Part shown: positions 11,045 to 17,721 of the stretch, piece by piece
How positions within the stretch are numbered: position 1 is the stretch's first letter
Layout: the number at the start of each line of letters is the position of its first letter
Assembly (NCBI GenBank): GCA_017531225.1
Contig: JAFXLL010000012.1
Coordinates: 275,864-339,863 of the forward strand
Direction of reading: 5' to 3'
From: Bacteroidales bacterium
GTDB taxonomy: Bacteria; Bacteroidota; Bacteroidia; Bacteroidales; F082
Length of the DNA: 64,000 nucleotides
Translations under genes and position numbers: made by a program
Notes under the pieces: model-generated
Database searches by the model: none
The model's input: the letters and a program-made list of their open reading frames with translations, nothing else
What the model was told of the DNA's origin: nothing

Positions 11045-11526
11045 TGATGAAACATAAAGGGATGCTGCTGCTATTGATGATGCTTTTCGTCGCAACGACG
11101 ATGCCGGCGCAGTATCTCCATCAGCCAGGGGAGAAGGCCGTTGATTTTGAAGGCATTACCGTTGACGGAAAGCCGTATCACCTGTATGAGTCCCAGGCCG
11201 AACGCATCATCGTGTGCTTTTGGTCATACGATTGCGACCATTGCCATGACTTCCTGAAGTCGCTCCGTAAGCACGTCGACCTAAAAAACGACTATGAGCT
11301 GGTGACGTTTGTCTTGGCCGACGATGCCAAACAGGTGCGGAAAAAAACACGTTGCATGCGCCTTCCTGGATGGCATTTCTTCGACTCAGAAGGCTGGAAT
11401 AGTCAGCCTTTTATGGATTATGACGTGAACATCACCCCGACGGTGGTACTCATCGATAAAGATAAAAACGTTATAGGCGAAGCCTATGATTTTGATGAAT
11501 TTGAAGCATTGATACATCATGAATAA
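11044..11526 (+). CDS. Exported thioredoxin-like protein (TlpA/AhpC-TSA type)
   Basis: This 160-residue protein has a signal peptide (ends in TTMPAQ) and a thioredoxin fold. The redox centre is CDHC, in FWSYDCDHCHDFL, and a cis-proline strand appears in ITPTVVLIDKDKNVIG. It is likely a periplasmic thiol-disulfide reductase. Partner proteins are unknown, but it is coupled to the lipoprotein upstream by a 1-nt overlap, and the GH3 fusion gene starts inside its last codons (8-nt overlap), which suggests a shared envelope role. Confidence 0.8.
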   Translation: MMKHKGMLLLLMMLFVATTMPAQYLHQPGEKAVDFEGITVDGKPYHLYESQAERIIVCFWSYDCDHCHDFLKSLRKHVDLKNDYELVTFVLADDAKQVRKKTRCMRLPGWHFFDSEGWNSQPFMDYDVNITPTVVLIDKDKNVIGEAYDFDEFEALIHHE

Positions 11527-14464
11527 AAAGACTTTCTCTCTCGCCATTGGATTATTATTCCTGTCATGCGGCCTTTTTGCCCAGGACGCTGAAACCCGTT
11601 GGGTTGACTCAGTTTATAACAGCTTGACGCTTGAGCAGCGTGTGGCTCAGCTGATTTGCATGCGTGCCAACCAGCCAGACAAGCCATATTACGAAGAAGT
11701 GGCCCAATACATCCAGCAATACAACATCGGCGGCGTGTGTTTCTTCAGGAACGACGAGGTGCTGCAGGTGGAACAGACCAATGCATGGCAAGCCATAGCC
11801 CAGACTCCCTTGATGGTCTCCGTCGACGCAGAATGGGGGTTGGCAATGCGTTTGAGAAAGACGGTGGCTTATCCATTCCAGATGACTTTAGGCGCCATCA
11901 ACGATAACGAACTAATCTATCTGATGGGTCAACAAGTGGCTGAGCAGTGCCATCGCATGGGCGTTCATGTTAACTTTGCACCAGTGGCCGACGTCAACTC
12001 CAACGCAAAGAACCCTGTCATTGGCGTGCGTAGCTTCGGCGAGGATCCGAGAAACGTAGGGGAGAAGGCCGCCGCATACGCTTTGGGCATGCAGAGCAGA
12101 GGCTTGATCACTTCGATGAAGCATTTCCCTGGTCACGGCAACACTGATACCGATTCACACATGACCTTGCCCACGGTGACACGGTCGTACGAGGAAGTCA
12201 AGGATATTGAGTTGGCTCCATTCCGTTATCTCATTGAGCGTGGCGTCAATGGTGCCATGGTGGGTCACCTTTATTTCCCGGCCATCGAGAAAGTTGAGAA
12301 TACCTCTTCGTCGCTCTCAAAAGGCGTGGTGACGGATTTACTGAAGAATGAGATGGGCTTTGAAGGCTTGATCTTCACCGACGGACTCGATATGAAAGGC
12401 GTGTCGCAGACGGTGTCGGCTGACAGCGTGCCGTATGTGGCGTTTTTGGCAGGCAACGACGTGCTGATCCTGCCTCACGACGTTCCAAAGGCTATCCAAC
12501 AGATCAAGGAAGGCGCGGAGCGCGACGAGGAGATTGCCGATAGGGTAGAAGAGAGCTGCAAAAAGATATTGAAGTATAAGTACCGCTCGGGCTTGAATCA
12601 TTATATGCCAGCCTCGACAAGAAATCTGATTGCCGACCTGAATCATCAGGATTACCTGGAATTGCGTCAAATGTTGTATAACGAAGCTATCACCTTGCTG
12701 AAAAACGAAGACGAAGTCCTGCCACTGAAGGAAGGCCAGGAAATCGCTTTGGTGACTATCGGCAAGGCTGAAGATGCCAAGCACATGGCGGATTCACTGA
12801 AAGCCATTGGCGTGAAGGTGAAGTCCTATCAGATCAGCAAGGACAATGCAGCCGAAGCCAAAGTCTGGTTGCCTGAATTAGAGAAATACAATTTGGTGGT
12901 GGTGAACCTCATGCAGTCGAGCATCAGCGCCTCCAAAAACTTCGGCATTAACGAAGCTACGGTGGATTTCTTCAATAGATTGGTGGCACAGAATGACGTG
13001 GTGCTGAACCTGTTTGCCTGCCCATACGCCTTGGATCTGCTGCGTATCAACAATAGCGTGAGAGGCTTGTTGGTAGGCTATCAGGACAATGATGCTGTAC
13101 TCAACTCAGTGACTGATATCCTGACGGGTAAGCGTTTTGCCCACGGTACGCTGTCGGTTTCTGCCTCCAAGTTCAAATGTGGAGATGGCATTGTGCCTTC
13201 CGAATTTCCTGTGGCTATGCCAGCCTCAGCTCCTGTGCTGAGGGAAGGCTCGCTCTCCATCGATCAGACACCATTGCCAAAGGGAACCGTGGAAGCAAAA
13301 TATGAGCGCATGCTCGATTCAGTAGCCAGGATGGGCATTGAGAACGCCGCATATCCTGGATGCCAGATCTTGGTGATGAAAGATGGTAAAGCGGTGTATG
13401 ACAAGTGCTTCGGTACGTTTACCTATAGCAGTAGTTCGAAGGTGGTTCCCGAGGATGTGTACGACATCGCCTCGCTGACCAAGATCTTCGCTTCCACTTT
13501 AGCCATCATGAAACTCTATGAGGATGGCCTGCTCGACGTCAACAAGACCATGGGTGACTATTTCCCGTATCTCAATGCTTCCGACAAGGGAGCCATCAAG
13601 ATCATTGACGTCCTGACCCACCAGTCGGGTATGAAGTCATGGATTCCTTTCCATCTGGAGACGTATGACGAGAACGGACCAAAGCCTGAGTATTTCAGTG
13701 ATCATATCGACGAGGCTCATACGGTGCGTGTTGCAGAGAATATGTATGTGGTGAATGACTATAAGGAGCGGATTATCGACTCTGTCATGAAGAGCCCGAT
13801 GAAAGAGAAAAAGTATGTGTATTGTGACATGGGCTTCTTCTTCGTTCCGGAGTTGGTGAAGCAGCTTACCAACAAGTCGTTGGAAGAGTATTTGCATGAG
13901 TGTTTCTACGATCCCATGCACCTGACCAGCATTGGCTATTGCCCCTTGCATTGGCGTACTCGTGAGACCATCATTCCTACTGAGAATGACACAGCGTTCC
14001 GCAAGCAGCTGCTGTGGGGCGATGTGCACGACCAGCAGGCCGCTTTGATGGGTGGCATTTCAGGTCACGCTGGCTTGTTTGCCAACTCACATGATCTGGC
14101 GGTGATTGCACAGATGTTGCTTGATGGAGGCAAGTTTGAAGACCAACAACTGCTGAAGCCTGAAACCATCAAGTATTTCACTACAGCCCCATTCTCAGAT
14201 AACAACAACCGTCGCGGCTTGGGCTTCGACAAGTTGCCTTTGGACAAGAAAGGCCCATCTACGGCTTCAAAGTCGGCTTCGATGGCCAGCTACGGCCATA
14301 CAGGCTTCACGGGAACTTTCTTCTGGAACGATCCTGAAAACCATCTCTTGATCGTCTTCCTCTCGAATAGAGTGCATCCCTACGCCGAGCCTAATAACTT
14401 GTCACGCCAGAACATCCGCACTTTGCTGCATGATATTCTGTACCAAGCCTATCCTATTAGGTGA
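11519..14464 (+). CDS. GH3 glycosidase fused to a serine beta-lactamase-like domain
   Basis: The 981-residue secreted protein (signal peptide ends in CGLFAQ) has two catalytic modules. Residues about 25-360 are a NagZ-like GH3 domain with KHFPGHGNTDTDSHMTLP near 201-218, holding the His/Asp pair seen in bacterial beta-N-acetylglucosaminidases. Residues 390-570 fit the GH3 C-terminal domain. From about 600 to the end is a penicillin-binding-protein/beta-lactamase fold: SLTK near 652-655 supplies the nucleophile and lysine, YCD takes the Tyr-x-Asn place, and HTGFTG near 926 replaces the usual KTG. The combination suggests cell-wall muropeptide turnover. Such fusions are known in Bacteroidota. 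Confidence 0.88.
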   Translation: MNKKTFSLAIGLLFLSCGLFAQDAETRWVDSVYNSLTLEQRVAQLICMRANQPDKPYYEEVAQYIQQYNIGGVCFFRNDEVLQVEQTNAWQAIAQTPLMVSVDAEWGLAMRLRKTVAYPFQMTLGAINDNELIYLMGQQVAEQCHRMGVHVNFAPVADVNSNAKNPVIGVRSFGEDPRNVGEKAAAYALGMQSRGLITSMKHFPGHGNTDTDSHMTLPTVTRSYEEVKDIELAPFRYLIERGVNGAMVGHLYFPAIEKVENTSSSLSKGVVTDLLKNEMGFEGLIFTDGLDMKGVSQTVSADSVPYVAFLAGNDVLILPHDVPKAIQQIKEGAERDEEIADRVEESCKKILKYKYRSGLNHYMPASTRNLIADLNHQDYLELRQMLYNEAITLLKNEDEVLPLKEGQEIALVTIGKAEDAKHMADSLKAIGVKVKSYQISKDNAAEAKVWLPELEKYNLVVVNLMQSSISASKNFGINEATVDFFNRLVAQNDVVLNLFACPYALDLLRINNSVRGLLVGYQDNDAVLNSVTDILTGKRFAHGTLSVSASKFKCGDGIVPSEFPVAMPASAPVLREGSLSIDQTPLPKGTVEAKYERMLDSVARMGIENAAYPGCQILVMKDGKAVYDKCFGTFTYSSSSKVVPEDVYDIASLTKIFASTLAIMKLYEDGLLDVNKTMGDYFPYLNASDKGAIKIIDVLTHQSGMKSWIPFHLETYDENGPKPEYFSDHIDEAHTVRVAENMYVVNDYKERIIDSVMKSPMKEKKYVYCDMGFFFVPELVKQLTNKSLEEYLHECFYDPMHLTSIGYCPLHWRTRETIIPTENDTAFRKQLLWGDVHDQQAALMGGISGHAGLFANSHDLAVIAQMLLDGGKFEDQQLLKPETIKYFTTAPFSDNNNRRGLGFDKLPLDKKGPSTASKSASMASYGHTGFTGTFFWNDPENHLLIVFLSNRVHPYAEPNNLSRQNIRTLLHDILYQAYPIR

Positions 14465-15128: not shown

Positions 15129-16472
15129 TTGAAACGCATTGAAAACCAACAGCGGTTCGACTCCCTTCGAAAGGAGTTTGAGACATTTACCTTTTACCAG
15201 CAAGAGGTGAGTTTGGAAAATGGCGTCCTATCCATGACTTTTCATTTTAGCTTGGACGAACGCTATTTTTTTCATCCAACCATGACCATTCCCGCACGTC
15301 CGTTTTACCATTGGGAATCCATCCCAAAGGATCAACTTGAGGCGTTGGCTTTCCACATTGGGATGGTCGAGCTGGTGAGCTATTGGAAACTGGCCTGCCC
15401 CAAGCTCATCGTGGTGAAGCCTTTTGACTTGAAGCTGTGCCAAAAGAAATGGTGGAGACATCTTTATTACAATGGCTTGGGTGAGTTCCGCTACCTGAAT
15501 GGTATCGACTGCTCGGAGCATGACTTCTTACGGATTGAATCAGGCACCGACCGTGATTTCAAGCGCGTAGATGTGCCATTGCGTGAAACAGCGTTGATCC
15601 CCGTCGGCGGAGGCAAGGACTCGGTGGTCACCTTGGAGTGTCTACGTCAGGCCATGCCCGTCATCCCGGTGATCTTGAATCCCCGTGGCGCTACGGTAAG
15701 TTGTGTTTCTGCGGCTGGTTATACCATGGACGACGTAGCTGTCATCAACCGCACTCTCGATCCAACCATGCTGAAGCTCAATAATGAGGGTTTCCTTAAT
15801 GGACATACTCCATTCTCAGCACTGTTGGCCTTCCTGACCTTGATGATCAGTGCAGGAACTGGCTCGAAATACATTGCGCTCTCCAATGAGTCGAGCGCCA
15901 ATGAAAGCACAGTGCCGGGTACCGAAATCAATCACCAATACAGCAAATCCATTGATTTTGAAAGGGATTTCCGTGATTATGTACAGCAACACCTGAGCGA
16001 GGAGATGCAGTATTTCAGTTTCTTGAGACCGCTAAACGAGTTGCAGATTGCTTCGCTATTCAGTCAATACAAGGCTTATCACGAAGTGTTCCGTAGTTGC
16101 AATGCGGGTAGCAAAACCGACTCGTGGTGCGGAAAATGTCCCAAATGTCTGTTCACCTGGATTATCCTTTCACCGTTCCTTTCCAGAAAGCGATTGACGG
16201 AAATCTTCGGTAAGGATCTGTTGACGGATACCGACCTTAAGCCTACTTTTGAGGAACTGAATGGCACTTCGGCGGTAAAGCCTTTCGAATGTGTGGGTAC
16301 CGTGGAAGAGGTGAGGGCTTGCGTCGACTTTATGAAAGACCGCAAGGATACTATTGTGGAAGACTCACCTAAGGGAGATGCTTCCGTGGAGGAGATTTTG
16401 AAACGTTTTAATGAAGAGAATTTCCTTCCCGAACAATTTGTGAACATCCTGAAATCCAAGCTTTATGTTTGA
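15129..16472 (+). CDS. murL: UDP-MurNAc-L-Ala-L-Glu epimerase (MurL)
   Basis: MurL, known from Xanthomonas, uses ATP (released as AMP) to invert the terminal L-glutamate of UDP-MurNAc-L-Ala-L-Glu to the D form. The 447-residue protein has a PP-loop-like motif PVGGGKDS at residues 158-165, as expected for adenylation. A downstream patch NESSANEST is followed by a cysteine cluster (C324, C334, C337, C340 in RSCNAG and WCGKCPKC) that could hold a metal. No ATG occurs before residue 37, so I chose TTG 15129, 18 nt after the -7 box. The next gene, a MurD-type ligase, overlaps it by 8 nt, which fits a MurL/MurD2 pair. Family assignment is from recalled motifs and context. Confidence 0.8.
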   Translation: MKRIENQQRFDSLRKEFETFTFYQQEVSLENGVLSMTFHFSLDERYFFHPTMTIPARPFYHWESIPKDQLEALAFHIGMVELVSYWKLACPKLIVVKPFDLKLCQKKWWRHLYYNGLGEFRYLNGIDCSEHDFLRIESGTDRDFKRVDVPLRETALIPVGGGKDSVVTLECLRQAMPVIPVILNPRGATVSCVSAAGYTMDDVAVINRTLDPTMLKLNNEGFLNGHTPFSALLAFLTLMISAGTGSKYIALSNESSANESTVPGTEINHQYSKSIDFERDFRDYVQQHLSEEMQYFSFLRPLNELQIASLFSQYKAYHEVFRSCNAGSKTDSWCGKCPKCLFTWIILSPFLSRKRLTEIFGKDLLTDTDLKPTFEELNGTSAVKPFECVGTVEEVRACVDFMKDRKDTIVEDSPKGDASVEEILKRFNEENFLPEQFVNILKSKLYV

Positions 16473-17721
16473 CTTGATCTTGAATCGGCTTCGGGGCAAA
16501 CGCATCCTGATCCTTGGCTTTGGCCGTGAGGGGAAGTCGTCGTTGGCTTTTCTGAAGAAATACCTGCCAGAGGCTCAAGTTGCGGTGGCTGACAAGAACC
16601 CCATGGAGGGTGTGAAACACTCGGGAGAGGATTACTTGCAGGCGGTTTACGAGTATGACATCGTCATCAAAACCCCTGGGATTTCCTTGAAGGACTTTGA
16701 TGCTAAAGGGGTTGAGATAACCTCGCAGACTGATCTGTTTTTGAGCCAGTTCCATAACCAGACCATCGGCATTTCAGGAACCAAAGGCAAGAGCACGACT
16801 ACCAGCTTAATCTATCATTTGTTGAAGTCGTCGGGCCATGATGCCATCCTGACGGGCAATATCGGCATCCCTTGTTTCGACATCATGGAGCAGATCCATG
16901 AGGATAGCATTGTGGTTTATGAGCTATCGGCACATCAGTTGGAATATGTGCATAACAGTCCGAGGGTAGGGGTGTTGCTGAATGTGTTTGAAGAGCATCT
17001 GGATCATTTCGGAACGTTTGAGCGGTATAAGCACGCTAAGTTCAACCTGCTACGTTATATGGGTGCCGATGATTATGCCGTGGTGCATGAATCGCTGCTG
17101 ATGGAGACTCTGGAGTTGAGCGTTAACAACGTGACGTTCTCACGGATGGATTTCGACATTGATGAAGAAGCTTTACCGATTCTCGGTCCGCATAACCTCT
17201 TGAATGCCAAAGCAGCTTTGTGCGCTTGTGCTGCCTATGGTATAGACGTCAGGGACGTTATTCCATATCTCTATACCTTTAAGCCTTTGGAGCATCGCCT
17301 AGAGCCCGTAGGTACTTTCGGTGGTGTTACTTTTGTGAATGACAGCATTTCCACCATTCCACAGGCCGCCATTGCCGCTTGTCAGACTTTAGGCAAGGTC
17401 GATTTCCTGCTTTTGGGCGGCTTTGACCGTGATATCGACTACCAGCCGTTGGTTGATTTCATGATGGATCATCCCGTGCCGCATCTGCTCTTTACTGGGA
17501 AAGCCGGAGAGCGGATGATGGTTATGATGGAAAAGATTCAGACGAATAAGGCTCGTTATGCCAACATGGAAGAGGCTTTCGAGTATCTCAAAAGCCATTC
17601 AAAACCAGGTGATGTATGCTTGCTTTCGCCTGCCGCCTCCAGTTATGACCAGTATAAAAACTTCGAGGAACGGGGCCGTAAATTCAAGCAGCTGGCGGAG
17701 TTGTTCCGTATTAATTCTTAG
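16465..17721 (+). CDS. murD: MurD-type ligase, probably UDP-MurNAc-L-Ala--L-glutamate ligase (MurD2)
   Basis: The 418-residue Mur ligase has the N-terminal UDP-binding domain (ILILGFGREGKSS), the ATP loop GTKGKST at 105-111, YELSAHQLEYV, and HRLEPVG. Classical MurD adds D-Glu and has an NDSKATN motif; here residues 292-298 read NDSISTI, so the lysine of that motif is isoleucine while the threonine remains. With murL overlapping its start, the simplest reading is a MurD2 that adds L-Glu before MurL inverts it. An ordinary D-Glu-adding MurD with a divergent motif is the alternative. Its end overlaps the convergent M48 protease gene by 11 bp. Confidence 0.8.
   Translation: MFDLILNRLRGKRILILGFGREGKSSLAFLKKYLPEAQVAVADKNPMEGVKHSGEDYLQAVYEYDIVIKTPGISLKDFDAKGVEITSQTDLFLSQFHNQTIGISGTKGKSTTTSLIYHLLKSSGHDAILTGNIGIPCFDIMEQIHEDSIVVYELSAHQLEYVHNSPRVGVLLNVFEEHLDHFGTFERYKHAKFNLLRYMGADDYAVVHESLLMETLELSVNNVTFSRMDFDIDEEALPILGPHNLLNAKAALCACAAYGIDVRDVIPYLYTFKPLEHRLEPVGTFGGVTFVNDSISTIPQAAIAACQTLGKVDFLLLGGFDRDIDYQPLVDFMMDHPVPHLLFTGKAGERMMVMMEKIQTNKARYANMEEAFEYLKSHSKPGDVCLLSPAASSYDQYKNFEERGRKFKQLAELFRINS

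Follow-up and report, generated by a model that had tools for sequence, protein, structure and literature searches.

The stretch analysed here, 64,000 nucleotides of contig JAFXLL010000012.1 from a Bacteroidales genome (GCA_017531225.1) and called the window below, carries two overlapping genes on the forward strand that very probably encode the MurD2/MurL route by which D-glutamate (D-Glu) enters peptidoglycan. An earlier reading made from the letters of the DNA (the sequence-only reading) had proposed a murL-murD pair at 15129..17721, and both open reading frames (ORFs) are indeed open at these positions. The first encodes 447 amino acids from a TTG start at 15129, its frame being open from 15051, and the second encodes 418 amino acids on the same strand, with an overlap of 8 nt between them. 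The two genes and their motifs are listed here by position in the window and strand.

15129..16472, +, murL: NF041275 match at 3.8e-80, Xanthomonas sacchari murL match at E 4e-54, predicted model with a mean local distance difference test score (pLDDT) of 91
15606..15623, +, GGGKDS, PP-loop-like phosphate loop, MurL residues 160-165: invariant in 56 aligned rows, also in X. sacchari MurL
16098..16148, +, C324-x9-C334-x2-C337-x2-C340, likely metal site judging from the sequence: invariant in 56 rows and in X. sacchari MurL
16465..17721, +, murD2: TIGR01087 match of 320.7 bits, E/I/R signature, first 8 nt overlapping murL
16777..16797, +, GTKGKST, ATP-binding P-loop, MurD2 residues 105-111: identical letters in X. 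sacchari MurD2
16993..16995, +, E177, aligned with E. coli MurD D182 (role from PMC8788868)
17338..17355, +, NDSIST, MurD2 residues 292-297, with I295 aligned with E. coli MurD K319 (role from PMC8788868)
17428..17430, +, R322, aligned with E. coli MurD K348 (role from PMC8788868)

The first protein matches NF041275, the NCBIfam profile for MurL of Xanthomonadales, along profile positions 4-397 of 447, as well as the annotated X. sacchari MurL. On this full-length sequence relationship it is a member of the wider MurL family of the MurD2/MurL route, and the placement outside MurL that the sequence-only reading had named as counting against it was not seen. Relatives were fetched as the best 80 of 420 stretches encoding a MurL relative in a scan of named genomes, and the window protein was aligned with 55 of these (56 rows). 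The alignment contains 97 invariant columns, 63 of which are common to X. sacchari and to the database record MT836755.1. Among the 63 are GGGKDS, Y85, K87, E119, N268-H269-Q270, K273, the four cysteines C324, C334, C337 and C340, K384-P385-F386 and C388, so the PP-loop-like motif and four-cysteine patch that had been likened to Xanthomonas MurL are both shared with it. MT836755.1, the single match in a phage collection, is an unverified, unannotated record from human faeces labelled “Bacteriophage sp.” in which a murL-murD pair lies beside an elongation-factor-like frame (L217:3877-6536). It looks like a mislabelled bacterial fragment, and a phage-borne pair was rejected.

The second protein scores above the TIGR01087 murD cut-off of 211.95 bits and, like E. 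coli MurD (b0088), is a Mur ligase that keeps the P-loop lysine, E157, H183 and K198; it differs from E. coli MurD at D182 (E), K319 (I), K348 (R) and L416 (Y). Published work equates E. coli D182 and K348 with E197 and R358 of X. oryzae MurD2, reports that the E197D/R358K exchange leads to D-Glu use and that E. coli MurD K319T gains L-Glu use, and notes that arginine at K348 alone is not diagnostic, being present in Streptococcus mutans MurD (PMC8788868). At these three handedness positions the window ligase has E177/I295/R322 and X. sacchari MurD2 has E206/I339/R367, as against D/K/K in E. coli MurD. The altered NDSKATN motif noticed in the sequence-only reading is real (NDSIST against NDSKAT in E. 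coli) and, by alignment with X. sacchari MurD2, is the K319 position, where the change is common to Xanthomonas. Across 81 murD2 rows (the window and the 80 loci), glutamate is found in 80 (1 gap), isoleucine in 79 (2 gaps) and arginine in 79 (2 gaps), and in a quick tree of 48 MurD rows all 23 murD2-type rows, including X. sacchari, fall on one side of a branch with a Shimodaira-Hasegawa-like approximate likelihood-ratio support of 99. With Glu at D182 and Arg at K348, the window ligase is, by alignment, of the MurD2 type.

The host genome of the window (2.58 Mb, 14 contigs, 98.4% complete) was searched for murI, a D-amino-acid transaminase and a second murD, the genes that the sequence-only reading had proposed to look for. 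No glutamate racemase was found in this nearly complete, unclosed genome, with 0 matches to PF01177 and 0 to TIGR00067. No D-amino-acid transaminase was recognised either: PF01063 matches one protein, a branched-chain aminotransferase by NF009897 (423.5 bits), which reaches 55.7 bits on TIGR01121 against a cut-off of 277.45. The genome holds no second full-length murD; six other Mur-ligase-type proteins are MurC, MurE, MurF, a MurF-Alr fusion, a MurC/Mpl-like ligase (under both cut-offs) and FolC, and the remaining one is a MurD C-terminal domain in the division/cell-wall (dcw) cluster. There is no recognisable gene for making D-Glu in this genome and, because its dcw murD is reduced to the C-terminal domain, MurD2/MurL would be its sole route.

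The two genes are also linked across relatives. murD2 lies directly 3' of murL in all 80 fetched loci, nine times in one frame with it, and the overlap is exactly 8 nt in 46 of the 71 unfused pairs, so the pairing in the window is not due to chance. Among 29 further MurL-positive genomes, murD2 stands beside murL in 18 and is fused to it in 3 (G079, G183, G273), while in G054 the murL match holds a stop and no full MurD is shown. Genome G107 has a long MurL frame of 949 amino acids.

Within the order, 295 genomes drawn from Bacteroidales were scored for MurL and for strong MurI (E <= 1e-15, a threshold chosen after a gap from 5e-19 to 7e-13 was seen). MurL was found in 97 genomes (44 family labels) and strong MurI in 180, of which 178 are also above the curated cut-off; both occur together in none and 18 have neither (Fisher p 7e-60, a value that ignores kinship). 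The 18, which include G015, G126 and G193 and of which several are at least 90% complete, hold no D-amino-acid transaminase above cut-off. In a second draw of 247 genomes from the phylum, MurL was found only in the window's own genome and MurI (E <= 1e-15) in 212. As the listed genomes of this draw (at least 94% complete) come nearly all from outside Bacteroidales, it does not sample the MurL lineages.

The MurD2/MurL reading is carried by the family placement of both proteins, the handedness positions, the adjacency and fusions, the absent D-Glu source and the exclusion of MurI within the order, and the route without MurI proposed from the sequence is upheld by them. In this route, MurC would add L-Ala onto UDP-N-acetylmuramic acid, MurD2 (16465-17721) would add L-Glu in place of D-Glu, MurL would invert the added L-Glu at the expense of ATP and MurE would continue from there; a one-way epimerisation would remove the need for a free D-Glu pool. 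Here we infer the substrates, an adenylate step, the direction of epimerisation and metal binding. The system resembles that of Xanthomonas in the murL-murD2 order with an overlap (as in X. sacchari), the E/I/R residues, GGGKDS and the four cysteines, and the lack of MurI. It departs from the Xanthomonas route (PMC8788868) in its host phylum, Bacteroidota, in a MurL about 30% identical to that of X. sacchari, in the fusions seen in 9 of 80 loci and in the MurD C-terminal domain or full canonical MurD that stays in the dcw cluster.

The authors of PMC8788868 call the mechanism of MurL not clear. The predicted model of the window MurL resembles QatC/QueC by VIA-align, and its cysteine patch aligns with cysteines of E. 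coli QueC in a low-probability hhalign comparison. Because Foldseek and hhalign gave only weak matches, the tentative fold assignment rests on VIA-align and the motifs, which are near to the described QueC/QatC-like SGGxDS and C(x)8CxxCxxC (PMC13329287) without being exact, as MurL has GGGKDS and C(x)9CxxCxxC. The window MurL differs from QueC and from QatC of qatABCD defence in that PF06508, the QueC family, gives 13.4 bits, below the gathering score of 22, and PADLOC gives no match. A PDB sequence search with the protein returned nothing at E <= 1, and one with the MurL profile returned short PP-loop stretches only (TtuA, E 0.021). The modelled resemblance would fit ATP-to-AMP chemistry and offers a candidate site and chemistry for MurL. 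For a MurL-MurD2 fusion (L027, 898 residues, 9 rows) the predicted structure (pLDDT 68.4, predicted template modelling score 0.44) was too poor to place the active sites relative to each other.

The dcw cluster of the host genome (contig 6) reads mraZ, rsmH, ftsI, murE, mraY, X, ftsW, murG, murC, ftsQ, ftsA, ftsZ, the names other than those of Mur ligases having been assigned by reading the translations. X occupies the usual place of murD, between mraY and ftsW:

L091:7990-8544 (contig 6, outside the window), -, X, C-domain-only MurD of 184 amino acids: matches murD profile positions 278-440 only

This protein lacks the UDP- and ATP-binding domains, and parts of its NDSKAT motif are altered. 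A short dcw MurD frame is present in all 35 relatives' genomes searched (of 80); in genome G306 the stop-to-stop frame is long and measures 182 amino acids counted from ATG. When the 97 MurL carriers of the order draw are sorted by their dcw MurD, it is short in 34, full in 52 and unjudged in 11 (2 at contig ends, 9 unclear). The short form is followed by ftsW in 34 of 34 and preceded by mraY in all 33 with that side present. No N-terminal MurD remnant was found between mraY and the short dcw MurD; in longer loci the N-domain query matches past mraY, at murE. Among the matches listed for 81 MurL-negative genomes there was no clear case of a C-domain-only MurD: 79 carry MurD frames of at least 444 amino acids, and the other two carry frames of 391 (G253) and 272 amino acids (G052, ended by the contig). 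The full dcw MurDs read D/K/K in 48 of 48 MurL-positive and 21 of 21 MurL-negative genomes, and in four of four fetched later.

The C-domain-only MurD is under purifying selection. In the window's clade its median ratio of nonsynonymous to synonymous substitution rates (dN/dS) is 0.149 (77 usable of 105 pairs), compared with 0.066 for murD2 and 0.088 for murL, for which only 5 and 7 pairs were usable, and the nearest-pair values are 0.069, 0.052 and 0.041, respectively. Three other groups give 0.05-0.23, and for a fourth the ratio could not be computed. Seven family labels (f4, f6, f13, f27, f50, f74, f95) hold both short and full dcw MurD, which makes repeated truncation likely. A single origin was set aside, as the C-domain tree needs 6 changes, though only 1 is forced by well-supported branches; several independent losses are thus likely, not proven.

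Several observations weigh against the MurD2/MurL route. The window MurL falls below the NF041275 cut-off (269.6 against 700 bits; X. sacchari MurL scores 836.5) and outside that narrow set, and is about 30% identical to X. sacchari MurL over 430 columns. Foldseek found nothing in the PDB at E <= 0.001 (best 0.033), the hhalign probability against E. coli QueC is 4%, and the X. sacchari and E. coli branches of the MurD tree are long. murL and murD2 are on separate contigs in 7 of the 29 further genomes (G001, G071, G077, G120, G162, G181, G218; L220-L226), and all seven MurD2 proteins carry E/I/R. Weak TIGR00067 matches (E 4e-7 to 3e-12) occur in 16 of the 97 MurL-positive genomes and are taken as other racemase-family proteins. 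Finally, a full D-Glu-type dcw MurD without strong MurI is found in 52 of the 86 judged MurL-positive genomes (e.g. L096, L097, L100, L227), which simple replacement does not explain; our guess is that it may ligate salvaged D-Glu. These canonical MurDs, the unclosed state of the host genome and the gut origin of many named relatives, judged from titles, would suit an ordinary MurD that adds D-Glu obtained from the gut or produced by a racemase that escaped recognition, with the MurL-like protein doing something else. We regard this as very improbable in view of the E/I/R signature of the window ligase, the complete lack of co-occurrence of MurL and strong MurI in 295 genomes, the fusions, the adjacency in 80 of 80 fetched loci, and a host dcw MurD without its ATPase domain. 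Even less credible is a MurL that racemises free glutamate or acts on another glutamyl compound, with a MurD2 that takes either isomer. At about 30% identity to a Xanthomonas MurL, a different substrate is conceivable; X. oryzae MurL, however, was described as without racemase activity (PMC8788868), the invariant residues are common across phyla, and murL is linked and fused to murD2.

With MurD2/MurL as the route, it is an evenly balanced proposal that on its takeover in Bacteroidales the dcw murD was cut back, probably several times at the same boundary, by loss of the domains for UDP binding and ATPase activity, and that the C-domain stayed as a separate gene whose product serves cell-wall assembly as a non-catalytic component. 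On its own this protein cannot ligate anything, and we see equal chances for and against its acting as a structural element close to MraY, FtsW and MurG. That it is instead a relic being lost, with no function of its own, is unlikely. Its missing domains, the altered NDSKAT in the host genome and its faster evolution than murD2 and murL by dN/dS medians would agree with a relic, and a function can be unneeded for a while. Yet the frame is open in every relative searched, dN/dS is well under 1 in the window's clade and wherever computable in the other groups, and the order draw contains 34 genomes with the gene, which adjoins mraY wherever that side is present (33).

Around the pair, an AlgH-like gene (opposite strand) and a same-strand GH3/beta-lactamase-fold fusion lie upstream of murL, and an M48 peptidase lies downstream of murD2 on the opposite strand. 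The fusion (11519-14464, 0.66 kb 5' of murL) joins a NagZ-like GH3 domain to the beta-lactamase-fold domain. By MurL (95% identical), the closest named relative is the genome of an uncultured member of Bacteroidales; the titles of many others point to ruminant guts. Outside the phylum, a plasmid of Pseudonocardia alni (pPaSha1, L218:2989-4389) carries a MurL-like gene with GGGRDS, the 7.2 kb shown containing no annotated murD, and two more Pseudonocardia plasmids also match.

MurL has been listed in Gamma- and Alphaproteobacteria and Actinobacteria (PMC8788868, PMC5808125; rare actinobacteria in the former), with distant relatives in a fungus, cyanobacteria and an amoeba (PMC5808125), and the route has been called limited to relatively few genera (PMC8788868). 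The route itself is already known. In the portions of the literature covered by our search, MurL was not reported from Bacteroidota, nor was a lone MurD C-domain described, and neither the spread of the route in Bacteroidales nor the retention of this MurD domain was found there.

MurI is a drug target. Of the genomes drawn from this major gut order, roughly one in three (97 of 295) has MurD2/MurL in its place, and the named MurL relatives include many ruminant-gut lineages. This alters the set of bacteria expected to need MurI and the set that MurD2 or MurL inhibitors would hit. In addition, the C-domain-only MurD separates, in nature, a possible second MurD function from catalysis and, if the proposal made for it is true, the MurD C-domain does a further job that has nothing to do with ligation.
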